A DNA stretch of 64,000 nt from Actinosynnema sp. ALI-1.44 (GTDB taxonomy: Bacteria; Actinomycetota; Actinomycetes; Mycobacteriales; Pseudonocardiaceae). Positions 47,573 to 64,000 of this stretch are shown here, piece after piece; the first letter of the stretch is position 1; the number at the start of each line of letters is the position of its first letter. The notes beneath the pieces are model-generated. The model saw nothing but the letters and a program-made list of their open reading frames with translations, ran no database searches and was not told where the DNA came from. The position numbers and the translations under genes are program-made. The DNA is taken from the NCBI RefSeq assembly GCF_001984155.1, contig NZ_MTQO01000050.1:434001-498000 (forward strand), in the 5' to 3' direction.

Positions 47573-48556
47573 GTGATCAGACCCGCACGTGTGCTCGTCA
47601 GTGCGATCGCCTTGTTCAGCTTTGTTCTTCCAACGGCTGCTGAAGCACAAGCAGCCTGCACCTGGCAACGGGCTGAGCTGCCCGCGCCAGAGGGACACAC
47701 CAAGCCCGTGGTGAAGGGGATCGGCGGCGAGTACGTGGTCGCCGAGACGACCACAGCGTCCTCGACGCACAACGTGGTTCGTTGGCACAAAGGTGTGGCC
47801 ACAGTTCTCGGTTCACCTGCGCAGGACCCGACGTACTACATGACGCCGATCGACGTGAGTGCCAACGGAACGGTCCTGGCAACGTGGACGAAGGTGGGCT
47901 CGCCATGGGAAAGCCACCCGTATGTCACCCTGCTGGACGGGACGCACAAGTTCCTCCCCGAACCGGGACCGGGAGCGCCGCCGGGGGCGGGGCCGTGGAC
48001 GACGGCTAAGGCCATCAACGCCCACGGTGATGTCGTCGGCGACGTCGGCATGTACGACGACAACAAACTGGTCCTGTGGAAGGGCTCGGACTACTCCACG
48101 GCCAACGTTCTCGGTGCGGGTCACCCCATGGGCATCGACGACTCCGGCTTCATACTGAAGGCACCGGGAATCAAGGTGAAGCCGGGGCAGATCGCGAAGC
48201 CGCTGAAGAAGCCCGAAGGTGCGACGTCGATCTACGTCCACGGCTACGACAACGGTACGGCCATCGGAAACGCCAAGATCGGTACCGCTGAGAAGATGAC
48301 GGTGTGGAACGACGACGGGTCCGTTCGCTACGTCGTCTCCGGCGGTCTGGGGCGTTCCGCCAACGCCAAGGGCATGGCTGTAGGCGGCACGGGTTGGAAT
48401 GGCAACGACCCGACGTTGTGGCGTGACGGCCAGTCCGCCGAGCTGCCGACTCCGCCTCCGGTCGGTTCGACGACCTTCGTCACCGACCGGGACACGCTGG
48501 TCGGAAGCTACTCGGTCGGCAACGACGTCTTTGCCGCCGAGTGGACCTGCTCGTAG
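47573..48556 (+). CDS. Secreted propeller-like protein, paralogue 1
   Basis: 327 aa. Signal peptide (RPARVLVSAIALFSFVLPTA, cleavage after AEA-QA about residue 26), then a mature chain opening with ACTWQRAELPAPEGH and closing AAEWTCS; the first and last cysteines probably form a disulphide. Short repeats such as DVSANGTVLA, AINAHGDVVGD and GIDDSGFIL resemble HAF/NHL-type beta-propeller blades. GTG 47573 has a GAAGGGG SD. It is the first of three tandem copies. Extracellular ligand unknown. Confidence 0.8.
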   Translation: MIRPARVLVSAIALFSFVLPTAAEAQAACTWQRAELPAPEGHTKPVVKGIGGEYVVAETTTASSTHNVVRWHKGVATVLGSPAQDPTYYMTPIDVSANGTVLATWTKVGSPWESHPYVTLLDGTHKFLPEPGPGAPPGAGPWTTAKAINAHGDVVGDVGMYDDNKLVLWKGSDYSTANVLGAGHPMGIDDSGFILKAPGIKVKPGQIAKPLKKPEGATSIYVHGYDNGTAIGNAKIGTAEKMTVWNDDGSVRYVVSGGLGRSANAKGMAVGGTGWNGNDPTLWRDGQSAELPTPPPVGSTTFVTDRDTLVGSYSVGNDVFAAEWTCS

Positions 48557-48578
48557 GGTGACCCCTTGAACAGGCTGG

Positions 48579-48609
48579 ACGGCTCGGCAGCATCCCGCTG
48601 CCGGGCCGT
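48579..48609 (+). terminator. Hairpin between paralogues 1 and 2
   Basis: A 13-bp stem: ACGGC-T-CGGCAGC (48579-48591) pairs with GCTGCCG-G-GCCGT (48597-48609), the central T-G being a G-U wobble in RNA, with loop ATCCC. No T-run follows. It may be an intrinsic terminator or an attenuator lowering expression of paralogues 2 and 3. Confidence 0.6.
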
Positions 48610-48641
48610 CCCGGCCCCACGACAGTCCAATGGGGGACTCT

Positions 48642-49595
48642 GTGATCAGATCCGTACGCGTACTGGTCGGCTCGGTCGCGCTGGTCGGCCTGCTGTTCCC
48701 GGCGACCGCCCAAGCACAGGCGGCCTGCACGTGGCAGCGGACCGAACTGCCGGTGCCCGCCGGGCACGGCAATCCCGCTGTGAAGGGCGTCGGTGGCGAA
48801 TACACCGTCGCGCAGACGATGGCAACCCCGACGCCCGGAATCGCCCGCTGGCACAAGGGTGTACCGACCTTGGTCGGGTCGCCGACGCAGGACCCGGCCT
48901 TCTACGGCGCTCCGCGCGACGTCAGCGCCAACGGGACGATACTGGCCGAACTCGTGCCGACGGCTGGTCCGCCTGTGGGTGAGCCGTATGTGACACTGCT
49001 TGACGGAACCCACAAGTCCCTGGGAACTCCGGCTCCCGGGCAGCAGAAGGTCGCTGTCGGCATCAACGCCAGCGGTGACGTCGTGGGTTACACGTCCATC
49101 GACGGCGTCCAACGGCTCGTCCTGTGGAGTGCTTCGGACTACTCCAAGCCGCAGATCCTCGGCGCGGGCGACCCGGTCGGCATCGACGACGACGGCTTCA
49201 TCCTGGCGAAGCCGGGAATCAGGTATAAGCCGGGCGTGATCGCCAAGCCGCTGAAGAAGCCCGCAGGTGCCACGCAGATCCAGGTGCACGGCTACGACAA
49301 CAACACGGCGGCCGGTTTGGCCGTCATCGGCGACACCTTCTACGCGACGGTGTGGAACGCGGACGGGTCCGTCCGATTCGTGCTGACCGCCGGTAAGGGG
49401 CAGTCGGCCAACAGCCAGGGGTCCGTCCTCAACGGTGGTCCGATCCACAAGCTGTGGCGTGCCGGTCAGGCCGCCGATCTGCCTGTTCCGGGGCCCGCGA
49501 ACCACACGCAGGCGTTCGTGACCGAACGGGACACCATCGTCGGCAACTACCGCGACGACCTCGACGGCTACGCCGCTGAGTGGACCTGTTCCTAG
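48642..49595 (+). CDS. Secreted propeller-like protein, paralogue 2
   Basis: 317 aa. The signal peptide (RSVRVLVGSVALVGLLFPAT then AQAQA) is nearly identical to that of paralogue 3, and the mature part begins ACTWQRTELPVPAGH and ends AAEWTCS. GTG 48642 is chosen by matching paralogue 1 and because GGGGGA precedes it; ATG 48630 would add four residues. Blade-like repeats DVSANGTILA, INASGDVVGY, GIDDDGFILA and a lysine-rich linker KPGVIAKPLKKPAGATQ are shared with its neighbours. Probably exported; function unknown. Confidence 0.8.
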   Translation: MIRSVRVLVGSVALVGLLFPATAQAQAACTWQRTELPVPAGHGNPAVKGVGGEYTVAQTMATPTPGIARWHKGVPTLVGSPTQDPAFYGAPRDVSANGTILAELVPTAGPPVGEPYVTLLDGTHKSLGTPAPGQQKVAVGINASGDVVGYTSIDGVQRLVLWSASDYSKPQILGAGDPVGIDDDGFILAKPGIRYKPGVIAKPLKKPAGATQIQVHGYDNNTAAGLAVIGDTFYATVWNADGSVRFVLTAGKGQSANSQGSVLNGGPIHKLWRAGQAADLPVPGPANHTQAFVTERDTIVGNYRDDLDGYAAEWTCS

Positions 49596-49617
49596 TCAGA
49601 AAACCAAGGGGGATTTC

Positions 49618-50577
49618 TTGCTCAGATCCGTACGTGTGCTGGTTGGCTCGGTCGCATTGGTCGGCCTGCTTTTCCCAGCGACAGCCCAGGCACAGCAGGC
49701 CTGCACGTGGCAGCGCAGCGAGCTGCCCGTGCCAGCCGGGCATTCCGGTCCCGATGTGAAGGGGATCGGCGGTGAGTATTCGGTCGCGCTGACGGGATCG
49801 AATCCGGTGCCCGGCATCGTCCGTTGGCGCAACGCGCAACCGACGGTGCTCAGCCTGCCGACAACGGAACCGGGGCTCTACGGCACACCCATCGACGTCA
49901 GCGCGAACGGAACCGTCGTGGCCGTGTTGCGTTCGCTGAACGGTCCGGTGCTGAACAAGCCGTACGTCACCAAGGTGGACGGGACACACAAGTTCCTCGC
50001 CGACCCGGCTCCGGGCAAGCCAGGAAACCCTGTCGCCATCAACAGCCAGGGTGTCGTCGTCGGGCACGCCGACGTCGACGGTGCGCTGCGGCTGGTCCTG
50101 TGGAACGGACCGGACTACAGCAGTGCCACAGTGCTGGGTACGGGTGTGGCCATGGGCATCGACGACGACGGCTTCATCCTGGCGAGGCCGGGGATCAGGT
50201 ACAAGCCGGGCGTGATCGCGCAGCCGTTGAAGAAGCCCGTTGGTGCGACGTCGATCGACGTGCTCGGCTACGACAACGGCACGGCGGTCGGTTCTGCCGT
50301 GACCGGCATGGTGTACCAAGGCGTGGTGTGGAACGCCGACGGCACTGTGCGTTACGTGCTGCCCGGTGGCACGGTGCGTTCGGCGAACAGCCAAGGCACC
50401 GCGATCGGCGACGGGGTCTCGGGCGCCAAGCTGTGGCGTGCCGGTCAGCCCGCCGATCTGCCCGTCCCAGGACCATGGATGGCCGGGAACTTCGTCACCG
50501 GGCGGGACACCCTGATCGGGACCTACTTGGACATCGAGGGCGGCAACGTCCACGCCGCCGAGTGGACCTGCTCGTAA
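49618..50577 (+). CDS. Secreted propeller-like protein, paralogue 3
   Basis: 319 aa from a TTG start (49618) with AAGGGGGA at good distance; no ATG/GTG lies between it and the signal-peptide core, and paralogue alignment fixes the start. Signal peptide RSVRVLVGSVALVGLLFPAT matches paralogue 2. Mature chain ACTWQRSELPVPAGH ... AAEWTCS. Only 22 nt separate it from paralogue 2, so these two are cotranscribed. The TTG start may lower its output relative to the others. Confidence 0.8.
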   Translation: MLRSVRVLVGSVALVGLLFPATAQAQQACTWQRSELPVPAGHSGPDVKGIGGEYSVALTGSNPVPGIVRWRNAQPTVLSLPTTEPGLYGTPIDVSANGTVVAVLRSLNGPVLNKPYVTKVDGTHKFLADPAPGKPGNPVAINSQGVVVGHADVDGALRLVLWNGPDYSSATVLGTGVAMGIDDDGFILARPGIRYKPGVIAQPLKKPVGATSIDVLGYDNGTAVGSAVTGMVYQGVVWNADGTVRYVLPGGTVRSANSQGTAIGDGVSGAKLWRAGQPADLPVPGPWMAGNFVTGRDTLIGTYLDIEGGNVHAAEWTCS

Positions 50578-52473: not shown

Positions 52474-54003
52474 ATGTCCAGGAAGCTCGCCCTCACCAGC
52501 ACATTAATCATGGTCGCCCTGTTCCTGCCGGTCCCGGCCGGGGCGGCCGAGATGCGCCAGCAGACCGCCATTCCGGCATATTGGGGACCGGATACGCCGG
52601 ACGGCATGGAGATCTTCAACCGATTGGCGCAAAACCGGCCGACGAATGGGATCACGGTGCTCAACGGCAGTCGCAGCATGCCGGAGCTGCCGTTCAACCC
52701 CGCCTGGGCCACCGCGATCGGCAAGCTGGCCGGATCGGGCACGAAAACGCTGGTCTACGTCGACACCGGCTATCTGGGGGTCGACTTCGGGCACGGCAGT
52801 CATCGGACCAGGGCAGGCGGGACTTCGATTCCGGAGTGGCTGGAGCAAATCCGCCGTGACGTCGACGACTGGTACGACGCATACGGCGCGAGCGGACTGG
52901 GCGGCATCTTTCTCGACCAGACGATTCTGATCTGCGGCCCCGGCGACGAGTACGCGAAACTCTACGCGGAGATTCGCGACCACATCCGGGCGAAGCACCC
53001 CGGCGCGTACATCGTGATCAATCCAGGTGCCCCGGCCGAACGGTGTTACGAGAACGTGGCGGACACCATGGTCTCGTTCGAAGGCGACTTCGACACCTAC
53101 ATGGCGCACACTTCGCCGGACTGGCAACGTGATCACTCCGAACCACGCAAGTTCTGGCACCTCGTGCACAACGTGCCGACCGTCGACGACATGAAAGCCG
53201 TGGTCACGCGCAGCAAGAGCAACAACGCGGGATTCGTCTACACGACCGAACGCCGGATGGATCCGTACCCGTGGGGCGGACTGGCGTCCTACTGGGACGC
53301 CCAACTGGTCGCGGCGTCCGGGATCGCCGACACGACACCGCCGCATCCGCCGGTCGGGCTCAGCGCGACGACCCGTTCGGACCAGGTCGCGTCCCGCGTA
53401 CGGCTGTCGTGGCAGACACCGGCCGACGACGTGGCGGTGGCCGGATACGAGGTGTACGCCAATCGCGTCAAGATCGCCGAAACGTACAACAACACATATC
53501 AGCTGACCGGCCTGCCGCACGGCAAGCCATACGAGTTCGCGATCAAAGCGCGTGATGCCGCGGGCAATCTCTCGGCCGAGAGCGCGCCATTGATGATCAC
53601 GACGCCGTCGGCTGGTCCACCGTTGTCGGACGCCGCCGCCTGCCTGAGTGCCGACGTCGCGGAATACCGGGTGAGTTTCGGTGCGCTGTTCGGCCACCAC
53701 CGGGTGTTCGTCGACTCCGACGACAACCCGTCGACCGGATGGCACCTGCCGCCCGGACTGCCAGCCGGGATCGACCTCTTGATCGAGAACTCGTTTCTGT
53801 ACCGGTATACCGGCCCCGGCTGGGCGTGGGAACGAGTAGCGGATGTACGACCTCTGGTAGAGGAATTCGGAGGTACTTTCGTATGGCGTGTCCCGGTGGC
53901 CGGTCCGGCCCGGCAGACCGTCGTGTTCAGCGGTTTCACCGCCGAGGACCCGCCGGACGAGTACAGCCCGGTGATTACCGCCGAGCGGGTTGCGTCCTGT
54001 TGA
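52474..54003 (+). CDS. Secreted spherulin-4 (GH135-type) glycosidase with Fn3 domain
   Basis: 509 aa. Signal peptide ~1-24; ATG 52474 follows GGAGGT at ideal spacing. Residues ~30-280 match spherulin-4 (TAIPAYWGPDTPDGMEIFNR, ITVLNGSRSMPELPF, KTLVYVDTGYLG, GLGGIFLDQT, TMVSFEGDFDTYM). Fungal Sph3, a GH135 enzyme, cleaves galactosaminogalactan. The catalytic-region Asp in LDQ and the Glu in FEG are present, but the residue after Asp is Gln where I recall Glu in Sph3. A fibronectin type III domain (~290-385) and a C-terminal beta domain with two Cys follow. It opens the exopolysaccharide locus. Confidence 0.88.
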   Translation: MSRKLALTSTLIMVALFLPVPAGAAEMRQQTAIPAYWGPDTPDGMEIFNRLAQNRPTNGITVLNGSRSMPELPFNPAWATAIGKLAGSGTKTLVYVDTGYLGVDFGHGSHRTRAGGTSIPEWLEQIRRDVDDWYDAYGASGLGGIFLDQTILICGPGDEYAKLYAEIRDHIRAKHPGAYIVINPGAPAERCYENVADTMVSFEGDFDTYMAHTSPDWQRDHSEPRKFWHLVHNVPTVDDMKAVVTRSKSNNAGFVYTTERRMDPYPWGGLASYWDAQLVAASGIADTTPPHPPVGLSATTRSDQVASRVRLSWQTPADDVAVAGYEVYANRVKIAETYNNTYQLTGLPHGKPYEFAIKARDAAGNLSAESAPLMITTPSAGPPLSDAAACLSADVAEYRVSFGALFGHHRVFVDSDDNPSTGWHLPPGLPAGIDLLIENSFLYRYTGPGWAWERVADVRPLVEEFGGTFVWRVPVAGPARQTVVFSGFTAEDPPDEYSPVITAERVASC

Positions 54004-54097
54004 TTCACTCGGCAGGACCAAGGGAAAACTGCTAACGACTCCTCGGTCGGCGCCGACGAACTCCATGGCCGGTGTCAAAAATCCCTGAGGAGTGAGC

Positions 54098-55399
54098 GTG
54101 ACTGTTCACATGCCGGATTTACGCAGAATCGGCATCGTTGGAATGGGCTATGTCGGCTTGACGCTGGCGGCCGCGATGGCCCGCAAGGGCTTCGAAGTGC
54201 ACGGGGTCGACACCGACCCGTTCGTACTCGAATCGCTGTCCCAGGGAAAGCCGCACATCTTCGAGCCCGGTGTGACCGAGACGTTCACCGAACTGATCGG
54301 CAAGAACATCTTCATCGCCCGTGAACTGCCCGATGACGGCGTCGACGCGGCGATCATCTGCGTGTCCACGCCCGTCGACGAAACGACCCATGAACCCAGG
54401 TTGAAGAACCTGGCCGCGGCGGCCGAACACGTGGCCGACCGGTGCGCGCCGACCACGTTGGTCGTTGTCCGCAGCACGGTCCCGGTCGGTGCGAGCCGTG
54501 CCGTCGTGCTGCCGCCGCTGGTCGAGAAGTGGGGCAGCGCACGGCTGGTGATGGCGCCGGAGCGCACGATCCAGGGCCAGGCCCTGCGTGAGCTGGTCGA
54601 ACTGCCGCAGGTCGTCGGCGGACTCGACGACGAGAGCCGCGAGCTCGGTGTGCGGCTGTTCGGCGGGCTGTCGGCCCAGGTGGTCCCCGTGTCCACTGTG
54701 GAAACCGCTGAGCTGGTGAAGCTCACCAACAACTGCCACACCGACGTGATCTACTCGTTCGGCAACGAGGTGGCGATGCTCACCGAGCGGCTCGGTCTCG
54801 ACCCGCTCGAGGTGATCAGGGCGACCAACCTCGACTACCCGAGGCCCGACATCGCCAAGCCCGGCTACGTCGGCGGCGGGTGCCTGTCGAAGGACCCGTA
54901 CATCATGATCACCAGCGGCGAGCGCAACGGCTACGTACCGAAGCTCATCGCGGCCGCCCGAACGCTCAACGAGGAAACGCCGGTGCACGTCGCGCACCGG
55001 GTGGTCGAGCTGATGTCCGGTAGCCGGACGCTGCTGGTGCTCGGCTGGGCCTACAAAGGTCATCCGCCTACAGACGACATGCGCGGCACGCCGATCGTGT
55101 CGATGATGCCGGTGTTCTCGGCGGCGGGGATCCACGTCCTCGGGCACGACCCGCTCGTCCTGCCCCGCGTGATCAGGGAGTACGGCGGTGAACCGGTCGA
55201 CGTCGCCGAAGGCTTCCAGCGGGCCGACGCGGTGCTGGTGATCACCGACCACCCCGACTACAAGGCGATCGACGTCGACGAGGTGCTGCCCGGCGGGAAC
55301 GTCCGGCTGGTCTACGACTCGTGGCGGATCCTAAACGCGGACAAGGTCACCGCCAACGGCGTGCGGTACGCGGCGCTGGGCTACGAGGTGCCGGCATGA
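54098..55399 (+). CDS. Nucleotide-sugar dehydrogenase (UDP-ManNAc/UDP-Glc type)
   Basis: 433 aa. NAD-binding GMGYVGLTLAAAMARKGFEV near the N-terminus, the helix VETAELVKLTNNCHTDVIYS, catalytic Cys262 in YVGGGCLSKDP and the C-terminal LGWAYKGHPPTDDMRGTPIV. These enzymes oxidise the C6 of a UDP-sugar to a uronic acid in two steps. Similarity looks closest to WecC/CapL-type UDP-HexNAc dehydrogenases, so a HexNAc-uronate is expected in the polymer or its cap. GTG 54098 with GAGGAG; GTG 54092 is alternative. The epimerase start overlaps its stop (ATGA). Confidence 0.93.
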   Translation: MTVHMPDLRRIGIVGMGYVGLTLAAAMARKGFEVHGVDTDPFVLESLSQGKPHIFEPGVTETFTELIGKNIFIARELPDDGVDAAIICVSTPVDETTHEPRLKNLAAAAEHVADRCAPTTLVVVRSTVPVGASRAVVLPPLVEKWGSARLVMAPERTIQGQALRELVELPQVVGGLDDESRELGVRLFGGLSAQVVPVSTVETAELVKLTNNCHTDVIYSFGNEVAMLTERLGLDPLEVIRATNLDYPRPDIAKPGYVGGGCLSKDPYIMITSGERNGYVPKLIAAARTLNEETPVHVAHRVVELMSGSRTLLVLGWAYKGHPPTDDMRGTPIVSMMPVFSAAGIHVLGHDPLVLPRVIREYGGEPVDVAEGFQRADAVLVITDHPDYKAIDVDEVLPGGNVRLVYDSWRILNADKVTANGVRYAALGYEVPA

Positions 55400-56334
55400 G
55401 GGCGCTCGTGCTCGGCGGCGCCGGGTTCATCGGCGTGCACCTGACCAGGCGCCTGCTCGCCGAAGGGCACGAGGTCACCGTGGTCGACGACTTCTCCCGT
55501 GGCCGCAACGACCCCGACCTGGCCGCGCTCGACGTGCCGGTGATCTCGGCCGACCTCACCGACCACGAGTCGTTCGACCGGATCCCGCACGGCTGGGACC
55601 AGGTGTACCTGCTGGCCGCGGTGGTCGGCGTGCGCAACGTGGAGAAGGACCCCGGCCGGGTCGTGCACGTCAACACCATGGTCGTGCTGAACGCTTTGGA
55701 CTGGATCAGGCCGGAGGAGAAGCTGTTCTTCGCCTCGACCAGCGAGGTGTACGCCGGTGGTGTGAGTGCGGGCATCGTGCAGGTCCCGACGCCGGAGACG
55801 GTGCCGGTGATGATCGAGGACGTGACCGCGCCGAGGTTCGCCTACGCGGCGAGCAAGCTGCTCGGCGAGGAAGCGGTCGTCCACATGGGACGGGCCAAGG
55901 GCCTGTCGTTCGTGATCGGCCGGTTCCACAACGTCTACGGGCCGAGGATGGGCGCGGACCACGTGATCCCCGAGCTCTCCCTGCGGGCCGCCCGCCGCGA
56001 GGACCCGTTCAAGGTCTACGGCACCGACCAGTACCGGGCGTTCTGCTACGTCGACGACGCCGTGTCGGCCATGCTGCTGTCGATGGACAAGGTCACCGGC
56101 GAGATCGTGCACATCGGCAACGACGAGGAGACCAACATCGGCGACCTGACCAAGCTGGTGTTGCGGATCGCCGACCACGACCCGGTGCTCGACGTCGAGA
56201 GCGCACCGGCCGGATCGGTCGCGAGGCGCTGTCCGGACTTGGCGAAGCTGCGCGCGCTCACCGGGTACGAACCCGCTGTGTCATTGGAAGAGGGAGTCAG
56301 GCGGACGTTCGAATGGTATCGCGGGAACGCGTGA
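55396..56334 (+). CDS. NAD-dependent sugar epimerase/dehydratase (extended SDR)
   Basis: 312 aa. Rossmann GGAGFIGVHLTRRL, catalytic Ser/Tyr/Lys as STSEVY and YAASK, and VYGPRMGADHVIPEL plus QYRAFCYVDDAVSAM typical of UDP-glucose 4-epimerase/dTDP-glucose dehydratase-like extended SDRs. A C4 epimerase making UDP-GalNAc from UDP-GlcNAc (as Uge3 and PelX do) would fit the locus, but 4,6-dehydratase activity cannot be ruled out. It overlaps its neighbours by 4 nt on both sides. Confidence 0.9.
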   Translation: MRALVLGGAGFIGVHLTRRLLAEGHEVTVVDDFSRGRNDPDLAALDVPVISADLTDHESFDRIPHGWDQVYLLAAVVGVRNVEKDPGRVVHVNTMVVLNALDWIRPEEKLFFASTSEVYAGGVSAGIVQVPTPETVPVMIEDVTAPRFAYAASKLLGEEAVVHMGRAKGLSFVIGRFHNVYGPRMGADHVIPELSLRAARREDPFKVYGTDQYRAFCYVDDAVSAMLLSMDKVTGEIVHIGNDEETNIGDLTKLVLRIADHDPVLDVESAPAGSVARRCPDLAKLRALTGYEPAVSLEEGVRRTFEWYRGNA

Positions 56335-57041
56335 CCCATCCGCGTGGCGGGCCGGTCGCGTTCTACTACGGAACCGACGAGATCGACCGGCTCGCCGCGT
56401 TCGATCGCGTGGTGCTGCAGGGCGAGGCGTACTCCGAACAGGACATCGCCTCGCTCGTGGTACGGGGTGTGCGGCCGTTGTGCTACCTGTCGCTGACCGA
56501 GGACACCGGGCCACCTGCGGAGTGGCAGCGCACGCAGAGCAACCCGGACTGGGGTGGGCACTTCGTCCACGTCGGACACCCCGGGTGGAGCGAGCACGTG
56601 CTGGGCAAGGCCGGTGAGATGCGCAGGCGGGGGTTTCGGGGGTTCTTCCTCGACACGCTGAACATCGAGCTGACGTTCCCCGACGACCTGCCGCACCTGC
56701 TGACGCTGGTCGCGGCGATCAGGGAGTCGACCTACCCGGACTACCTGCTGGCCAACCGGGGTTTCGGCCTGTTGCCGCAGCTGGCCGAACTGGTCGACGG
56801 CGTGCTGTTCGAGTCCTTCACGTCCCGGTGGGTCGACGACGGCTACGCGCCGTGGCCACCGGACGTGCTCGACGTGCACGCCCGATACGCGGAGATGTTG
56901 CTGGGACTGGACGTGGAGGTGTTCGCGCTCGACTACGCGGACACTCCACGGCTGGCCCAGTACGCCCAGCAAAGAGCAGCCAGATTCGGAATGCCCTGTT
57001 TCGTGAGCACCCGTGATCTGGGAACACTGCCCGCCGCATGA
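56331..57041 (+). CDS. GH114/GH166-like galactosaminidase-type glycoside hydrolase
   Basis: 236 aa TIM-barrel protein without a signal peptide as drawn. PelA-hydrolase/TM1410 features: an opening GGPVAFYYGTDEIDRLAAFD strand, LCYLSLTED, GFRGFFLDTLN with the probable catalytic Asp108, LLANRGFGLLPQLAELVDGV and FESFTSR with Glu161. Members hydrolyse alpha-1,4-galactosamine polymers. GTG 56331 overlaps the epimerase stop; ATG 56313 would overlap more. Lack of a signal peptide is odd for a polymer hydrolase: it may act inside, or leave by another route. Confidence 0.87.
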   Translation: MTHPRGGPVAFYYGTDEIDRLAAFDRVVLQGEAYSEQDIASLVVRGVRPLCYLSLTEDTGPPAEWQRTQSNPDWGGHFVHVGHPGWSEHVLGKAGEMRRRGFRGFFLDTLNIELTFPDDLPHLLTLVAAIRESTYPDYLLANRGFGLLPQLAELVDGVLFESFTSRWVDDGYAPWPPDVLDVHARYAEMLLGLDVEVFALDYADTPRLAQYAQQRAARFGMPCFVSTRDLGTLPAA

Positions 57042-57055
57042 GGCGGCGGGCAGTG
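57025..57055. terminator. Bidirectional terminator between the two EPS half-operons
   Basis: CACTGCCCGCCGC (57025-57037) and GCGGCGGGCAGTG (57043-57055) form a perfect 13-bp stem with loop ATGAG. The hydrolase stop codon (57039-57041) lies in the loop. It separates the convergent plus- and minus-strand transcripts, whose genes end 20 nt apart. Confidence 0.88.
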
Positions 57056-57061
57056 CGGTGT

Positions 57062-57928
57062 TCACCAGAGCGCGCGGATAGAGGAACGCAGGTCGTGGTG
57101 CGGTCGCCAGTTCAGGGTGGTGGTGATCCGGGAGATGTCGGCGGCGATCCACGTGACGGCGCCGGATCGGTGCACCGGCGGGTCGGCCTCGGAGATCTCG
57201 CCGGTGTACCCGGCCACTTCGGCGAGCACCTTCACCGCGTCCCTGATCAGCACGGGCACGCCGCTGCCCACGTTCATCACCGGGTACCGAACCTCGTCGG
57301 CGAGTGTCACCGCGGCGATCGCGCGGGCGACGTCCCGCACGTCGACGAAGTCCCGGTACGAGTCCAACGGGCCGAGCAGGATCTTGTCGTCGCCGTGGTG
57401 CAACGCCGTGCGGATGTTCGCCGCCGCGCGACCGAGCACGGTGTCCGCGCCGATCCCTGGCCCGATCGGGTTGAACACGCGCAGCGACACAGCGTCTACA
57501 TCGGCTGCGACGACCATGTTGGTGCTGGCGAGTTTCGTGATGCCGTAGGTCGCGACGGGGACGGTCGGGCTGTCCTCGGACACGGGCGTGCCGACGGGGA
57601 CCACGCCGTACTCGCCTGCCGAGCCGAGCACGACCAGCCGCGCCGACGGCACCGCCGCGGTGATCGCGTCCACCAGGTGCGCGGTCGTGAGCACGTTGGC
57701 CGACACCAGGTCCGCGGCGGAGCCGGATAACAGTCCCGTGCAGTTGACCACGACCTCCGGCTTGATCTCCCGCAGCAGCGTCATCAGTTTGCCGACGTCG
57801 TCGTTGACCAGGTCGTGCCGCAGCGCGGAACGGCGGCCGACCTGGACCAGGTCGACCTGGCCGGTCAGTTCGGCGACCACCTTGCCGCCGAGGAAACCAC
57901 TGCCACCGAAGAGCAGCACCCGCTTCAT
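57062..57928 (-). CDS. NAD-dependent epimerase/reductase (SDR)
   Basis: 288 aa. Rossmann motif GGSGFLGGKVVAEL, Ser in LGSAGEYGVV, catalytic YGITK and IGPGIGADTVLGRAAANI. Its length and TKL(A)STNMV segment fit dTDP-4-dehydrorhamnose reductase/GDP-mannose 4,6-dehydratase-like SDRs; the product is uncertain. ATG 57928 shares one base with the stop of the nucleotidyltransferase upstream (TGATG), so the two are coupled. Together they probably make an activated sugar precursor. It is the last gene of the minus-strand half of the exopolysaccharide locus. Confidence 0.9.
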   Translation of the reverse strand: MKRVLLFGGSGFLGGKVVAELTGQVDLVQVGRRSALRHDLVNDDVGKLMTLLREIKPEVVVNCTGLLSGSAADLVSANVLTTAHLVDAITAAVPSARLVVLGSAGEYGVVPVGTPVSEDSPTVPVATYGITKLASTNMVVAADVDAVSLRVFNPIGPGIGADTVLGRAAANIRTALHHGDDKILLGPLDSYRDFVDVRDVARAIAAVTLADEVRYPVMNVGSGVPVLIRDAVKVLAEVAGYTGEISEADPPVHRSGAVTWIAADISRITTTLNWRPHHDLRSSIRALW

Positions 57929-58647
57929 CAAGCCACCGATCCGGGGACGAGCAGCGGGCGCAGCCGTTCGAACTCGCGGTTGGCCTCGTCGTAGTCGTCC
58001 GGCCGCCCGATGTCCAGCCAGTACCCGTCGAAGTCGTAGGCCGCGGGGGGTTCGTCCTTGGCCAGCAGGTCGAGCACGAGCTCGTCGAGTCCGAAGGGGA
58101 CGTTGCGCGGGTAGGGGGCGAGCGTCTTGCGGGACATCGCGTAGACGCCCATGCTCACGCCGTAGGAGAGGGTCGGCTTCTCCACGAACCGCACGATCCG
58201 GCCGTCGGCCGTCTCCAGCGTGCCGAAGTCGATCTTCACCTGCCGCTGGTAGGTGGCGATGGTCAGCGGCGCGCCGGTCTGGGTGTGGTGGTGCAGCAGC
58301 CCGACGTAGTCCAGATCCGTGAGCACGTCCCCGTTCATCACCAGGAAGTTCTCCGGCAGTAAGTCGAGGAAGTTGAGCAACGGCCCGATCGTCGACAGCG
58401 GCGACTCCTCCTGGGAGTAGTCGACCGAGATGCCCCACCGCGAGCCGTCGCCGACGAAGGCCTGGATCAACGACCCGAGGTGGCCGATCGCCAGTGTGGC
58501 GCGGGTGAAGCCCTGTGAGCGCAGCTGTTGCATGATGATGTCGAGGATGGCGTACTCCTCACCGATCGGCACCAGCGGTTTCGGCAGCGCCGTCGTGTAA
58601 GGCCGCAGTCGTACTCCCCGCCCCCCAGCGAGTATCACCGCGTGCAT
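57928..58647 (-). CDS. Sugar-1-phosphate nucleotidyltransferase
   Basis: 239 aa. The nucleotide-binding signature [20 protein letters not shown] opens the protein; [12 protein letters not shown] holds the metal-binding Asp and [19 protein letters not shown] the sugar pocket. It joins a sugar-1-phosphate to NTP, probably UTP, GTP or dTTP (mannose-1-P guanylyltransferase and glucose-1-P thymidylyltransferase relatives share these features). It ends with a coupled overlap to the SDR gene and lies 18 nt after the 12-TM protein gene stop on its other side. Confidence 0.93.
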
Positions 58648-58665
58648 GGTGTTGCCTCCTTCTTC

Positions 58666-59991
58666 TCAACGGTAGCGCCGGACCTCGCCCGCGGTCGCCA
58701 GCGAGGTCAGCAGGAAAAGCACGAGCAAGGCGGCACAGCCCGTGAGGAAAACCGGGATCTCGTGACCGGGTGCGAAGTGGTTGACGAGCACGTTGGCACT
58801 GATGACGACGGGCATGATCGCCAGCGGCCAGCGCAGGCCTTCGTAGCGCATCAACACGAACCCGAGGAAGAACACGCCACCGAGCAGCACGTGCGCGTCC
58901 ACGAGCAGCGCGCCCCGGGCGGTGAGCAGGCCGAACCGGGCGAGGACGCCGAGCACGACCAGCGCGACGCAGGCCAGGATCACCAGGCACCAGGCCAGTT
59001 CCCTGACCAGCAGCCGCTGGGTGGCCCGCCGGAACCGCGTGACGTCCTTGGCCGAGTCCAGTTCGTCCAGCGCCTGCTCGGAATACCGGTGCGCCCGCCA
59101 CTCCACGGCGCCCATCCCGAGCACCAGCGGCGCGACGGCCAGTCCGAGATCCAGATCGGCCAACACGAACCGCGCGTCCGTGTTCAACATGAACGCCGCG
59201 CACAAGGCCGAGTACGCCACACTGGGCGCGGACAGCCTGAGCAACAAGGACATGCGCGGCGGTTTGCGGGTGTCCGGCTTTGCCCGGCCCGTCTCGTGCC
59301 ACGAGGCGGCCAGGATCAGCGCAATGGACAGTGCGCCGCAGCCGAGTGCCACGGGCAGCACGTCGAGAACGAGATGCGCCGCACCGCCGGCGCACGCGGG
59401 AACCATCAGCAACGCCAGGCGTGCCTCCCGCTTGTGGATCACGAGCACGCACGACGAGACCTGGAATCCCATCTGTGCCAGGCAGAACATCCACAGCCGG
59501 GTGTCGATCAGCAACGACCCGGCCGCGACGACCCCGAGCCCGACACCGCCGGACAGCCGCAACGACCGCCCGGCGGCGCGGTCGAGACCGTGGCCGAGCA
59601 GGCGGTAGGCGACCAGGCTCATGCCCATCGCCCACCACCAGCCGATCGCGGTGGTGAACACCAGGCCGCGGACCATGGTCATCGCGCCGAGCCAGTCGTA
59701 CGCCGCCGGGTAGGCCAGGCTCGGCAACAGGAAGAGCGGTCCGTGCGACAGTACCCGGAACGTTCTCCTGGTCCGTGGTTCGTCGTCGTGCGTCTCGACG
59801 TCACGAGGCAGACGCTTGTACACGACGACGGCGAGCGCGAAGACGTCCTTGACCCCGTAGCGCTCCTGCGCCACCTGGTCGGTGAAACCCTGGCTCTCCA
59901 GCACGGCGGCGATCTGCAGCTCGTCGACCGCCCGGCCGATCATCGGCGCGACCCGGTTCGCGAGCTCGTCCACCGCCTCGATCTCGGTCAT
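58666..59991 (-). CDS. Polytopic (about 12-TM) membrane protein, putative EPS translocator
   Basis: 441 aa. Residues 1-75 are cytoplasmic and acidic (ELANRVAPMIGRAVDELQIA, VTQ-like helix, GVKDVFALAVVVYKR), then about 12 hydrophobic segments, with one Arg/Asp-rich loop (EQALDELDSAKDVTRFRRAT) in the middle. The gene is wedged between the PelF-type glycosyltransferase (ATGA overlap at 59988-59991) and the nucleotidyltransferase, where Pel operons carry the 12-TM PelG. No clear PelG/Wzx sequence signature was seen, so exporter function rests on topology and context. It could be a glycosyltransferase partner or O-acyltransferase instead. Confidence 0.75.
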   Translation of the reverse strand: MTEIEAVDELANRVAPMIGRAVDELQIAAVLESQGFTDQVAQERYGVKDVFALAVVVYKRLPRDVETHDDEPRTRRTFRVLSHGPLFLLPSLAYPAAYDWLGAMTMVRGLVFTTAIGWWWAMGMSLVAYRLLGHGLDRAAGRSLRLSGGVGLGVVAAGSLLIDTRLWMFCLAQMGFQVSSCVLVIHKREARLALLMVPACAGGAAHLVLDVLPVALGCGALSIALILAASWHETGRAKPDTRKPPRMSLLLRLSAPSVAYSALCAAFMLNTDARFVLADLDLGLAVAPLVLGMGAVEWRAHRYSEQALDELDSAKDVTRFRRATQRLLVRELAWCLVILACVALVVLGVLARFGLLTARGALLVDAHVLLGGVFFLGFVLMRYEGLRWPLAIMPVVISANVLVNHFAPGHEIPVFLTGCAALLVLFLLTSLATAGEVRRYR

Positions 59992-61415
59992 CGCGTCACC
60001 AGCTCGGTGTAGATCGCCCGGTAGCTGTCGTTCCACTGCTGGAGGGTGAAGTTCTCCAGCACCCGCTGCCGGGCGACCCGGCCGAGCTTGCGCCGCAACG
60101 ACGTGTCGGTGAGCAGCTTGACGCACGCCCGCGCGACGGCCGTGTGATCGCGTGGCGGGACGACGAACCCGGCGTCGCCGACGGCCTCGGACACGCCGCC
60201 GACGTTCGTGCACACCTGGGGCCGCCCGGCCGACATCGACTCGACCACGGTGAACGGGAACCCCTCGGACACGCTGGTCAGCGCGACCAGGTGACCCGCG
60301 TGGTACGCGTCGATCTGCCGGGGCACACGGCCTTCGAACGTGGCCGACCCGGTCAGCCCCAACTGCTCGATCAGCTCGACGCAGCTGGCGTGGTACCCCT
60401 CGTTGACCGGGGTGACCGGGCCGAACATCCGCAGCACCGCGTCCGGGATCTCCTTGCGCACCAGGTGGAACGCCCTGATCAGGGTGTGCAGGTCCTTCAA
60501 CGGGTCGATCCGGCCGACGAACACGATTGTCGGCAGGTCCGGCTCGTGCTCGACCGGCGGGAAGTCCGCCGGGTCGATGCCGTTGTACATCGTGCGCATG
60601 CGGGCGGCGTCCGCGCCGTTGTGCAGCTGCCAGCGACGGTTGTAGCTGGAGTGCGGCGCGAGCATGTCCGCCGCGCGGTAGGCCGCGCCCGCCAGTGCGC
60701 GGAAGAAGCTGAGCAGCAACACCTTCACCGAGTGCGGGGTGGGTTCGTTGACGATGCCGAGATAGCGTTCCCGCAGGTACACGCCGTGCTCGGACATCAG
60801 GATCGGGGTGCCGTGCGTCCACTTCGCGGCCATCGCGACCAACGCGCTCAGCCCGTTCATCGACAGGTGGCAGATGTCGGCCTCGATCGGTGGGTACGAC
60901 AGCGGCCGCAGCATGTGTTCCAACAGGTCCGACGCGGTCAGCGCGTCACGCAGGCTGAGCGGTTCCGTCCACGTCGTCATCAGCCGGTCGATGGCCTCGT
61001 TGGACACCATCGCCTTGCTCAGGTCCGCCTTCCTGGCGTACTCGAACATCGCGGGCAGCGCGTCCAGCAGCGCGTCGGGGTTGCCCGGCGGTCGCAGCGC
61101 TTCGATGAACGCCGCGTGGATCGCGCCGAAACCGCGTCTTTTCCGTCGTTTCCGCTGTTGCGGGCCCCATAACGGAAGGTTCACGACCCGCGCCAGGTTG
61201 TCCGGTGTCGGCCAGGTGCTGCGCTCGGACCCGTCGACGGTCAACGCGACCGCTGTGAACTCGTGTTCGGGCATGCCGTTGATCAGCTGGTCGCACCACA
61301 GGCTGACACCGCCGGGGTGGAACGGGTAGGCGCCTTCGGAGATCAACGCGACCCGAAGACTTGGCCGGGCCGCCCCGGTGGGCTTGGTCAGGGTGAGGCG
61401 CTCGGGTGCGATCAT
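59988..61415 (-). CDS. pelF: PelF-type GT4 glycosyltransferase
   Basis: 475 aa. N-terminal PelF domain (DUF3492): SLRVALISEGAYPFHPGGVS followed by LWCDQLINGM and a long helical insert. The C-terminal GT-B half has FVGRIDPLKDLHTLI and the GT4 EX7E signature Glu384-Glu392 (SEGFPFTVVES), binding UDP-sugar. PelF polymerises UDP-GlcNAc/UDP-GalNAc into Pel in the cytoplasm. ATG 61415 overlaps the upstream deacetylase stop (ATGA), and its stop overlaps the membrane-protein start, so three genes are translationally linked. Symbol given by family, not tested function. Confidence 0.9.
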   Translation of the reverse strand: MIAPERLTLTKPTGAARPSLRVALISEGAYPFHPGGVSLWCDQLINGMPEHEFTAVALTVDGSERSTWPTPDNLARVVNLPLWGPQQRKRRKRRGFGAIHAAFIEALRPPGNPDALLDALPAMFEYARKADLSKAMVSNEAIDRLMTTWTEPLSLRDALTASDLLEHMLRPLSYPPIEADICHLSMNGLSALVAMAAKWTHGTPILMSEHGVYLRERYLGIVNEPTPHSVKVLLLSFFRALAGAAYRAADMLAPHSSYNRRWQLHNGADAARMRTMYNGIDPADFPPVEHEPDLPTIVFVGRIDPLKDLHTLIRAFHLVRKEIPDAVLRMFGPVTPVNEGYHASCVELIEQLGLTGSATFEGRVPRQIDAYHAGHLVALTSVSEGFPFTVVESMSAGRPQVCTNVGGVSEAVGDAGFVVPPRDHTAVARACVKLLTDTSLRRKLGRVARQRVLENFTLQQWNDSYRAIYTELVTR

Positions 61416-63460
61416 GACCGTGGGCTCGCAGTCACGGTGACGGACTGGCCCGCGTTCACGCCGAGCCGTGAGATCGCGTCGCTGCCGTAGATCTCGGCCT
61501 CGTCCGGTCCTTTCTGGTCCTCGTCGGTCGCCTCCCTCGTCTGGATCCCGGTGACGAACAGCGATCCGTCGTTCTTCGCGGTGTAGGTCACGGCGTTCGT
61601 CAGCCGGTTCCACACGGCGTCCTCGGTGAGCTGGCCGAAGTGGGACGTGCGGTGCTCCACGTAGTTCGCCAGCGTGACCCAGTCGGTGTTCTTCAACGGG
61701 ACCCGGTAGTACGCGGTGTACCCGGCGAGAACCGCCTCGATCCAGTCGAACGCGAGGCTCTTGCCGTTCGCGTACTGGTGGAGGTTGCCCTGGTGCAGCG
61801 TGTGGACGTATGCGGAGCCGCTCATCACGTGCTGCAGCGCGACTTCAGCCTCGCCCTTGACGATCGCCTCGTAGCTGTGCGCGCCGTATTCGGCGTTGTA
61901 CAGAGCTTTCTGCTCGTCCGGGGTGACGGCCTCGAACGCGATGTTGGTCGGCCAGTCCGGGACGACGAACACGTCCCGCTGCAACGGGTGGTGGATGCCG
62001 CAGTTGAAGCAGGACGGCCGGTGGCCCGCGAAGGACATGTTGCCCTGGACGTAACGCACACCGAGGTCGCTCGCCGCCTTGAGCAGTTCCTTGTTGGACC
62101 CGGCCAACCCGTGGTCGGTCGGCGGGTCGGGGGACTCCGGGTCCGGGTTGTACACGCCGAGCCCGGAGTACTCGGGGGTTTTCAGCACCGAGTGCGGGAC
62201 CTTCAGCCCGCCGGTGGCCGCGTCCAGGAGGTTGCGCTGGATCTCGGTGTGGTTGCGTTCGTAGGGGGTGTCGTTCATCTGCGGGTGTGTGCTGGTGTGG
62301 TTGATCCACCGGAACTCACCGGCCAGGCACTTGGTGTAGCTGCTCAGCGGCTCGGTGGTGTCGTCGGAGCAGTGCGCGGGGGCCCGTGCGTCGAACTTGC
62401 TGGCGTTGTAGGGCAGGTTGAGCGTGAAGTCCTTCGCCAGCGGGTGGGCCTGGCGTACTTTCTTCTGCTGGTCGGCGACTTCCGCGGCCTCGGCGCCGGT
62501 CAGCCGGTACACGTCCTTGGTGCCGTCCGGGTGCAGCCGCAACGTGCTGCTGAACCAGTCGTCGACGTCCACGCCGAACCAGTGCCGTTGTTCGCCGAGG
62601 AAGACGCCCCGGGTCGCCCACCGCACGAGCCCGAGACCGAGCAGCTTCGTCGACACGGCGTCTGGGCCGACCGAGAACGTCAACGCGGCCCGTTCCCTGC
62701 CGTCGTGGGTGCTGAACACACCGACCACGTCCTGCCCGACGGTCAGGAACGGAGTCGCCTCGCAGCCCAGTCTCGCCCGGTACAGGTAGGACTGGACGAT
62801 CGGGATCTTGGCGTCGGCGACCAGGTAGTCGAACACCTGGTTGCCCGCCCCGGTCACCGTGGCCAGCTCAGGCGTCGTGCCGACGGCGCCCTCGCCGGCC
62901 GGGCGTAAGCAGTAGTCCTCAGGGGACTGACCGGGGAACGTGTTCAACGAGACCTGCCGGACCTGGAACTCGCGTTCGTACTTCCATAACGCGTCCCACT
63001 CCTGTGGTTCGAGCGCGGGCTGGTAGTTGCCGTTGTTCGGGTAGAGCAACGCGTTGTTGGTCAACAGGATCGCGTTGTACCGGCCCACGCCGTCCGTCCG
63101 CACCAACCGGGTGGTGTCCAGCCGTTCGGTGCGGGCGAGCAGGACGTCGTACGGCGTGCCGATGCCGTCCAGCACTGATTTCCACGCGGCCAGGCCGAAG
63201 TCGTCCGTGTCGGTCGCCACCACCAACAGCCGCAGCGCGACGCGCGATCCCGGCCCCGAGTCCGTGTTCTTGGCGCGGATCGGGACGCGTTGCCTGCGGG
63301 GCAGCGGTGGTTGGTCCGGCATCCCCGGCTGTGCGGACACACCCGTGGGGCCTGGTGCCTCGAGCCCGGACGGGCTGGTCAGCGTGACGGCGACCAGTCC
63401 GAGCGCGACGACGATCAACAGCGGGATCGGAAGGCTCCGACCCAGCACGCGTGGATTCAT
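61412..63460 (-). CDS. CE18/Agd3-like polysaccharide deacetylase, copy 1
   Basis: 682 aa. An uncleaved or lipid-free signal anchor (~13-30) leads to an N-terminal beta domain (~70-280, CBM87-like position) and a NodB-like deacetylase domain with metal motif DVDDW (298-302) and HTSTH (388-392), then VVPDWPTNIAFEA and AYVHTLHQGN (about 551-559). In Aspergillus fumigatus Agd3 removes acetyl groups from GalNAc in galactosaminogalactan, giving a cationic adhesive polymer. ATG 63460. A second copy ends 6 nt upstream. The substrate here is predicted, not shown. Confidence 0.85.
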   Translation of the reverse strand: MNPRVLGRSLPIPLLIVVALGLVAVTLTSPSGLEAPGPTGVSAQPGMPDQPPLPRRQRVPIRAKNTDSGPGSRVALRLLVVATDTDDFGLAAWKSVLDGIGTPYDVLLARTERLDTTRLVRTDGVGRYNAILLTNNALLYPNNGNYQPALEPQEWDALWKYEREFQVRQVSLNTFPGQSPEDYCLRPAGEGAVGTTPELATVTGAGNQVFDYLVADAKIPIVQSYLYRARLGCEATPFLTVGQDVVGVFSTHDGRERAALTFSVGPDAVSTKLLGLGLVRWATRGVFLGEQRHWFGVDVDDWFSSTLRLHPDGTKDVYRLTGAEAAEVADQQKKVRQAHPLAKDFTLNLPYNASKFDARAPAHCSDDTTEPLSSYTKCLAGEFRWINHTSTHPQMNDTPYERNHTEIQRNLLDAATGGLKVPHSVLKTPEYSGLGVYNPDPESPDPPTDHGLAGSNKELLKAASDLGVRYVQGNMSFAGHRPSCFNCGIHHPLQRDVFVVPDWPTNIAFEAVTPDEQKALYNAEYGAHSYEAIVKGEAEVALQHVMSGSAYVHTLHQGNLHQYANGKSLAFDWIEAVLAGYTAYYRVPLKNTDWVTLANYVEHRTSHFGQLTEDAVWNRLTNAVTYTAKNDGSLFVTGIQTREATDEDQKGPDEAEIYGSDAISRLGVNAGQSVTVTASPRS

Positions 63461-63466
63461 GCCTGC

Positions 63467-64000
63467 CTACCTCGGCTGGGCGAGCAACGTCTGTCCCAGC
63501 CCGGGGCGCACGCCCAGTTGGGTGATCAGGTCGGTGCCGTACCGCTCGGACGGAACGAGCAGGGCGCCCGCACCGGTGATGAACAACGAGCCGGTGGTGT
63601 CGGCCTTGACCGTGACGACATTGGTCACCTTGTCCCACACCACGTCCGGTCCGGCCTTGATCTCGTTGTGGTGCGCGGAGCGGGCCTTCGAGTAGTTCGC
63701 CACCCAGGTCCAGTCCGGGCCCTTGAGCGGCACGTTGTAGTAGCCGCTGTACTGCCGGACGACCTCTTCGACCCAGTCGAACGCGAGGCTCTTGCCCGGT
63801 GCGTAGTGGTGTGCGTTGCCCTGGTGGAACGTGTGCACGTACACGGACCCGGACAGGACGTGTTCGAGGCCGACCTCCGCCTCCAGCGCGAGGATCTCCG
63901 CGTACGTCAGGTTCCTCGGGTGGGTCGGGAACTGGCCGTTCGGGCCGTACAGGCTGTTGTACAGGTACGTTTGCTCGTCGGGAGTGGTGACCTGGTAGCC
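63467..64000 (-). CDS. CE18/Agd3-like deacetylase, copy 2 (C-terminal part only)
   Basis: The last 177 codons of a second, divergent paralogue; the N-terminus is beyond the window. Alignable segments with copy 1: VTTPDEQTYLYNSLYG (vs VTPDEQKALYNAEYG), SGSVYVHTFHQGNAHHYAPG (vs SGSAYVHTLHQGN), KSLAFDWVEEVVRQY and DVVWDKVTNVVTVKA. The intact shared core shows it is not a fragment left by deletion. The metal motif cannot be checked here. Stop TAG at 63467-63469, 7 nt before the copy 1 start. Confidence 0.85.
   Translation of the reverse strand, partial: GYQVTTPDEQTYLYNSLYGPNGQFPTHPRNLTYAEILALEAEVGLEHVLSGSVYVHTFHQGNAHHYAPGKSLAFDWVEEVVRQYSGYYNVPLKGPDWTWVANYSKARSAHHNEIKAGPDVVWDKVTNVVTVKADTTGSLFITGAGALLVPSERYGTDLITQLGVRPGLGQTLLAQPR

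Follow-up and report, generated by a model that had tools for sequence, protein, structure and literature searches.

The galactosaminogalactan (GAG) gene cluster of Aspergillus fumigatus comprises Uge3, Gtb3, Sph3, Ega3 and Agd3. In bacteria, agd3 homologues were reported in 45 species, and 30 of the 35 in the published tree lie in or near operons of carbohydrate-active enzymes (Bamford 2020, PMC7229062). As described in the text of that paper, which does not split these operons into classes, all of them encode a cytoplasmic glycosyltransferase (GT) and a multi-spanning membrane protein, the glycoside hydrolase (GH) family GH114 is common, and spherulin-4 is present in some actinobacterial operons; transfer to fungi is discussed. 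Gram-positive pel operons, actinobacterial ones included, have likewise been described (Whitfield 2020, Bundalovic-Torma 2020). Here, we analyze a locus of ten genes in a stretch of 64,000 nucleotides (hereafter, the window) from the 11.7 Mb genome of the soil actinomycete Actinosynnema sp. ALI-1.44 (contig positions 434001-498000). An earlier note on this stretch had read the locus as a combination of Pel and fungal GAG parts. The presence of both in one bacterial locus is already known in outline, and in this respect the earlier note is largely a rediscovery; new here are the division of related loci into two classes, the corrected assignment of precursor genes and a change in the active site of the CE18 deacetylases. 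We recognized no description of the two classes or of the Lys/Asp change in the openly licensed papers listed by our searches, which were mostly judged by their titles and the opening lines of their abstracts.

The window locus shares with the fungal GAG cluster a GH135 (Sph3-like) protein, but has no identified C4-epimerase, no GH114 (Ega3-like) gene and no CM3 arginine in its deacetylases, while its dehydrogenase, nucleotidyltransferase and RMD-like short-chain dehydrogenase/reductase (SDR) have no counterpart in the GAG gene list given above. At the level of families, the claim of the earlier note that every GAG activity has a counterpart in the locus is supported for GH135, GT4 and CE18, unsupported for GH114 and doubtful for the C4-epimerase. 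The human heparan sulfate N-deacetylase NDST1, an animal enzyme whose substrate is heparosan, stands at 17% identity. The bacterial agd3 operons described in the text of PMC7229062 resemble the window locus in placing a CE18/CBM87 deacetylase gene next to those for a cytoplasmic GT and a protein with several membrane spans, along with GH114-like genes and, in some Actinobacteria, spherulin-4; they differ in that the hydrolase of the window locus is GH166-like. With the Gram-positive pelDEADAFG operons, as presented in PMC7112168 and PMC13254593, the locus has in common PelF, a PelA-hydrolase-like protein and an anchored three-domain deacetylase; however, no PelG or PelD was detected, and the deacetylase carries CBM87 by Pfam, whereas PelADA is classed as CE26/CBM114.

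Two classes of related loci and the CE18 active site

A profile search of genome contigs yielded at least 579 relatives of the window's PelF, and the best 80 loci by similarity to it were compared; this set does not cover the full range of such loci and includes some near-copies. The membrane protein is encoded in 78 of these loci (the two that lack it are contig ends, 4.9 and 8.1 kb long), the nucleotidyltransferase in 66 and CE18 in 77, the last being the neighbourhood that the earlier note had suggested surveying. Judged by their sequences, the 80 loci sort into two classes by precursor genes, hydrolases and CE18 active site, a split that goes back to one old event. A dehydrogenase gene, present in 45 loci, marks the class of the window. 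All 45 also carry the nucleotidyltransferase, SDR2 and membrane protein genes, 44 have a GH166-like gene, and the CM3 position is occupied by Asp in 40 and by Cys in 5, and never by Arg. Among the 35 loci that have no dehydrogenase, CM3 is Arg in 26, Asp in three (L072, L085 and L062, whose contig is cut short) and Val in two, both from Meiothermus; three more have no CE18 and one has an unreadable column. Spherulin-4 is found in 20 of the 26 Arg loci (19 of which are longer than 16 kb), GH114 in 15 and both in 14. A LegB-like SDR1 was recognized by motif in 14 of the 26, and the two Arg-class SDR1 proteins that were tested scored 456 and 443 bits with the LegB (4,6-dehydratase) model, just below the cut-off of 475. 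The nucleotidyltransferase is missing from four of the long Arg loci.

The earlier note's two CE18-like proteins match Pfam CBM87_Agd3 and Agd3_CE above the cut-offs. Agd3 ranks first among the Protein Data Bank (PDB) relatives, and the Agd3 fold across the domains and the CM1, CM2 and CM4 residues are present. The CM3 arginine is replaced by Asp in both proteins (positions 502 and 512 of deacetylases 1 and 2, respectively), in a column that aligns gap-free with R613 of Agd3. The catalytic base is coordinated by R613, a residue described as integral to the activity of Agd3 (PMC7229062). As the same source reports conservation of CM3 in most but not all of the bacterial homologues, the arginine does not strictly define CE18. 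In P. aeruginosa PelA (CE21), this Arg is missing, yet the enzyme is active, and a His has been proposed as the substitute (PMC12022489).

The two Asp, the two metal-binding His and the catalytic His are kept in 86 of the 87 aligned CE18 rows, the remaining row being cut. In the window's proteins, a lysine (K427 in deacetylase 1, K439 in deacetylase 2) sits in an L-K-T-P/G-E-Y-S-G motif. Its column holds Lys in all 58 rows with Asp or Cys at CM3 and in both Val rows, and Val, Ile or Leu in all 26 Arg rows. Counted from the second metal His, the lysine follows after 35 residues in 57 of the 58 Asp/Cys rows; in the CE4 enzyme SpPgdA, the MT3 Arg is presumably located about 34 residues past the corresponding His. 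The invariant Lys thus apparently corresponds in position to the activating Arg (MT3) of canonical CE4 enzymes. The position two residues before the catalytic Asp varies along with it: Asp in 60/60 non-Arg rows, His in 24/26 Arg rows. In the CE18 tree, which was built by a quick method with a midpoint root and has long branches flagged, Arg and non-Arg proteins are separated by one branch (the cut row, L101, was dropped from the tree and from residue counts). Five Arg-type CE18 proteins tested fell below the Agd3 Pfam cut-offs, while five non-Arg ones passed both; thus, the window's class is nearer to Agd3 in sequence, though it is without its Arg. Deacetylation by this subclass is probable.

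A third CE18 gene, present elsewhere in the genome (G000:C21:21966-23729), shares the Lys and the Asp at CM3 with the two in the locus. The reading frames inspected in the surrounding 18 kb include no obvious PelF gene, nor any other obvious gene of the locus.

Genes of the locus and their distribution

The gene set seen by the earlier note is confirmed. The ten genes (Table 1) are tightly packed between position 52474 and window-equivalent position 65551 and form two convergent sets. Five adjoining gene pairs overlap by 1–22 bases; the SDR1 gene start overlaps the dehydrogenase gene by 4 bases. Sixteen other loci with the membrane protein were found in 60 relatives, and in all of them tblastn placed homologues of CE18, PelF, the nucleotidyltransferase and SDR2 beside it; the grouping is therefore not due to chance.

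Table 1. Genes of the window locus, the plus-strand set in its order followed by the minus-strand set in its order.
Feature	Position in window	Strand	Evidence
Secreted spherulin-4 (GH135-type) glycoside hydrolase	52474..54003	+	Pfam Spherulin4 PF12138 117 bits (cut-off 30.2)
NDP-sugar (UDP-glucose/UDP-HexNAc type) 6-dehydrogenase	54092..55399	+	TIGR03026 300 bits (cut-off 190)
SDR1, extended SDR	55396..56334	+	Pfam Epimerase PF01370 164 bits; nearest solved relative UDP-glucuronic acid decarboxylase (UXS)
GH166-like (PelA hydrolase-like) protein	56313..57041	+	PDB PelA 5tcb E 1.3e-17
CE18 deacetylase 2, 694 aa	63467..65551 (window-equivalent; C-terminal part 63467..64000 inside window)	-	CBM87 32.6 bits, Agd3_CE 28.4 bits
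CE18/CBM87 (Agd3-type) polysaccharide deacetylase 1	61412..63460	-	Pfam Agd3 CBM87 and Agd3_CE above cut-off; N-terminal anchor by reading
PelF-family GT4 glycosyltransferase, putative polymerase	59988..61415	-	NCBIfam PelF 166 bits (cut-off 100)
Multi-transmembrane protein, putative export partner of PelF-like enzyme	58666..59991	-	No Pfam or NCBIfam family
Sugar-1-phosphate nucleotidyltransferase	57928..58647	-	Pfam NTP_transferase 129 bits; PDB mannose-1-phosphate guanyltransferase beta E 1e-29
SDR2	57062..57928	-	Pfam Epimerase PF01370 110 bits; nearest solved relative GDP-6-deoxy-D-lyxo-4-hexulose reductase (RMD)

The PelF-domain GT4 reported earlier is well founded, and its residues R302, K307, E384 and E392 are invariant in 81/81 rows. 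The comparisons with PelF and PelG that the earlier note had suggested were run by profile. The window's PelF matched a PelF that adjoins a PelG (L128) with E 3.6e-52 and 100% probability, which served as the positive control for PelG. The protein seen by the earlier note as having about 12 transmembrane segments in the place of PelG roughly agrees in segment number (averaged over the alignment, 11 hydrophobic segments were counted, including very short ones), but its relationship to PelG was rejected at the level of sequence profiles, with an hhalign probability of 0.25% against an alignment of three PelG proteins from relatives within the phylum. It starts with a conserved soluble stretch of ca. 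85 residues, and a Pfam search with 75 homologues gave stray weak matches only (best E 0.025). The PelG family PF16933 had no match at E <= 1 in the window's genome; of 296 genomes from the phylum, 3 have a PelG above the cut-off and 6 have one at E <= 0.001. For PelD, the cyclic di-GMP receptor, no PelD_GGDEF match above the cut-off was present in the window's genome (best E 0.23).

The spherulin-4 protein, whose presence the earlier note had correctly noticed, has a signal peptide by reading, an fn3 domain (Pfam, 34 bits) and a C-terminal region of no recognized kind. It matches the spherulin-4 structure 5c5g (E 3.4e-4), and its acidic pair D148/E203 is kept in 27/27 rows. From the “GH114/GH166-like” label of the other hydrolase, the GH166 part was retained. 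GH114 was rejected on the grounds of a Pfam score of 24.6, under the cut-off of 27, and of PelA being the nearest solved relative; a genome search for PF03537 (GH114) gave no match at E <= 0.001. Similarity to the PelA hydrolase is accompanied by an aligned Asp/Glu pair, which places the protein with GH166 at the sequence level, not by formal CAZy assignment. The pair, D114/E167, is kept in 78/78 rows and aligns with PelA residues 58 apart, of which we take D160 to be the partner of E218. E218 is the PelA residue given in PMC7112168. Neither a hydrophobic leader nor a signal peptide is seen in the window's GH166-like protein, which is probably cytosolic.

When GH166-like subfamilies were split by BLAST, two kinds were found in the 80 loci, 39 genes of the window's kind and 38 of another. 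In the former, no protein has a hydrophobic leader and two contain a chance lipobox pattern; in the latter, 24 have a lipobox pattern and 29 a hydrophobic leader. Both kinds are present in 29 of the 45 dehydrogenase loci, and three Kibdelosporangium-type loci combine the signal-less kind with spherulin-4, as the window does. Two simple rules were tried and rejected: exactly one secreted hydrolase per locus (four of the 45 dehydrogenase loci carry only the signal-less kind) and mutual exclusion of GH and spherulin (true GH114 occurs in 15 of the 26 Arg loci).

The UDP-sugar dehydrogenase and the nucleotidyltransferase proposed earlier are both present. The dehydrogenase, for which an alternative start at 54110 is possible, has as PDB relatives 4r16, a hypothetical UDP-ManNAcA dehydrogenase (E 3.5e-47), and CalS8 (E 3.2e-45). 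SDR1 aligns with the UXS structure 4lk3 (E 2e-36), including the TSE, YxxxK and RAFxYVxD motifs, and SDR2 with the RMD structure 2pk3 (E 3.6e-22). As nearest relatives, which do not prove substrates, these make SDR1 look like a UDP-glucuronate decarboxylase and SDR2 like a 4-keto-sugar reductase. The “two sugar epimerases” of the earlier note thus belong to the Pfam Epimerase family but have nearest solved relatives other than C4-epimerases, so that neither a C4-epimerase nor a uronate in the polymer is clearly supported.

The Arg class is found mostly in Streptomyces and relatives, and the window's class in Actinomycetota and Deinococcota. The Deinococcota loci (L082, L089, L092 and L097) come from Meiothermus and a Deinococcales bin, and two of them retain just the hydrolases and the genes for CE18, PelF and the membrane protein. 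CE18 and PelF are also found on a short contig (L106) that bears the label Melainabacteria. Records named Rhodococcus rhodnii NRRL B-16535 (L052, L099) hold Kibdelosporangium-like loci and probably represent a mislabelled strain.

A broken copy of the locus was found in the congeneric genome G007 (contamination 8%) at G007:C5:1086000-1105999 (L138). By tblastn, its first deacetylase is matched only to about residue 94, where the nucleotidyltransferase takes over. The 20 kb read contain neither a PelF gene nor one for the membrane protein, SDR2 is mostly missing, and CE18-2 and spherulin-4 are in pieces, for which sequencing errors are possible; matches to the dehydrogenase, SDR1 and GH are full-length. 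In genome G005, the flanking genes are separated by ca. 1.4 kb that does not contain the locus, and its copy is located elsewhere. The locus looks dispensable.

Outside the locus, three tandem paralogous genes at window positions 47573-50577 encode secreted proteins of ca. 320 amino acids, HAF-repeat-like by reading, with DNA blocks of 77–300 bases at 70–75% identity.

Proposed pathway and alternatives

On balance, the locus probably serves to make an exopolysaccharide by a synthase-type route and belongs with the bacterial agd3 (CE18) operons. The PelF-like GT4 would polymerize a nucleotide-activated amino sugar in the cytosol; PelF is described as polymerizing UDP-GalNAc in PMC7112168 and PMC13254593. 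The multi-transmembrane protein, constantly paired with PelF, would take the chain for export, and the two anchored CE18 enzymes, judging by family and fold, would strip N-acetyl groups outside the cell to give a cationic, adhesive polymer. The secreted spherulin-4 protein may trim this polymer outside the cell, and the GH166-like enzyme could conceivably cut chains that fail to leave the cytosol. The dehydrogenase and SDR1, together with the nucleotidyltransferase and SDR2, would make a second sugar nucleotide modified at C6/C4 via a 4-keto intermediate, and the polymer is therefore probably not plain GAG or Pel. Activation of the catalytic base, which in Agd3 falls to the CM3 Arg, may in the window's subclass have passed to a Lys at the MT3 place of canonical CE4 enzymes.

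We tentatively propose, at well short of even chances, that the window's class makes a hitherto unseen cationic polymer with an amino-sugar backbone and a second, C6-processed sugar, and that CE18 was rebuilt around its catalytic base from His/Val/Arg to Asp/Lys/Asp, or the reverse, in one ancient step that moved the activating charge between the Agd3 and CE4 positions. Several points weigh against the pathway outlined above. For a single GT to handle both sugars, it would need dual specificity; otherwise, another GT would have to be encoded elsewhere. The SDR and nucleotidyltransferase assignments depend on distant relatives, the Lys-for-Arg replacement depends on the alignment and on the assumed CE4 spacing, and the residue that PMC7229062 describes as integral in Agd3 is Asp in both window proteins. 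Since a single branch separates the two clades, the covariation of residues and gene content counts as one old event. Pfam Agd3_CE also matches a frame beside PelG in two genomes of the phylum, with higher scores (85 and 93 bits), so this model alone cannot separate CE18 from PelADA-type enzymes. Finally, no reported chemistry was found for any locus of the window's subclass.

In the full reading of the earlier note, the product would be a simple alpha-1,4-GalNAc/GalN polymer like GAG or Pel, one of the SDRs would serve as the C4-epimerase for UDP-GlcNAc, and a uronate would be contributed by the dehydrogenase. This is unlikely, though the PelF, CE18, GH135- and GH166-type parts that suggest it are real. 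Both SDRs are in Pfam Epimerase, and the UDP-glucose 4-epimerase 4zrm is among the next-best relatives of SDR1, behind UXS (117 vs. 129 bits); however, among solved structures SDR1 comes nearest to a UDP-glucuronate decarboxylase and SDR2 to a 4-keto-sugar reductase, their galE scores of 87 and 68 bits are far below the cut-off of 262, and the two SDR1 proteins tested from the other class are LegB-like 4,6-dehydratases.

The loss of the CM3 arginine, replaced by Asp or Cys in every dehydrogenase locus, and the importance of R613 for Agd3 activity (PMC7229062) would also fit CE18 proteins that are binding proteins or act on another substrate instead of deacetylating GalNAc polymers. We regard this as rather improbable, since the metal and acid/base residues are kept in every uncut row, an invariant Lys has been gained, and P. 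aeruginosa PelA is active without this Arg (PMC12022489). A cell-wall or protein glycan in place of a free exopolysaccharide is more improbable still. A single GT4 with a second-sugar cassette would suit a wall-linked glycan too, and galactosamine-containing polysaccharides of Streptomyces walls are cited in PMC7229062, but none of the ten genes was recognized as a ligase, Wzy or Wzx in the Pfam and NCBIfam searches (one of the ten has no family), the PelF and Agd3 precedents are free polymers, and the broken copy in G007 and the absence from this site in G005 argue against such a role.

Overall, the interpretation given in the earlier note is partly supported. The Arg class holds more counterparts of the fungal GAG cluster: 14 of its 26 loci combine an Arg-type CE18 with GH114 and spherulin-4. 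The Arg class is richer in GAG parts, and the window's class is closer to Agd3 by Pfam; both bear on the origin of the fungal cluster. Two classes of CE18 loci that differ jointly in precursor genes, hydrolases and active site lead to testable predictions on polymer chemistry and on the mechanism of deacetylation, and provide a sharper experimental target than “Pel plus GAG parts”.

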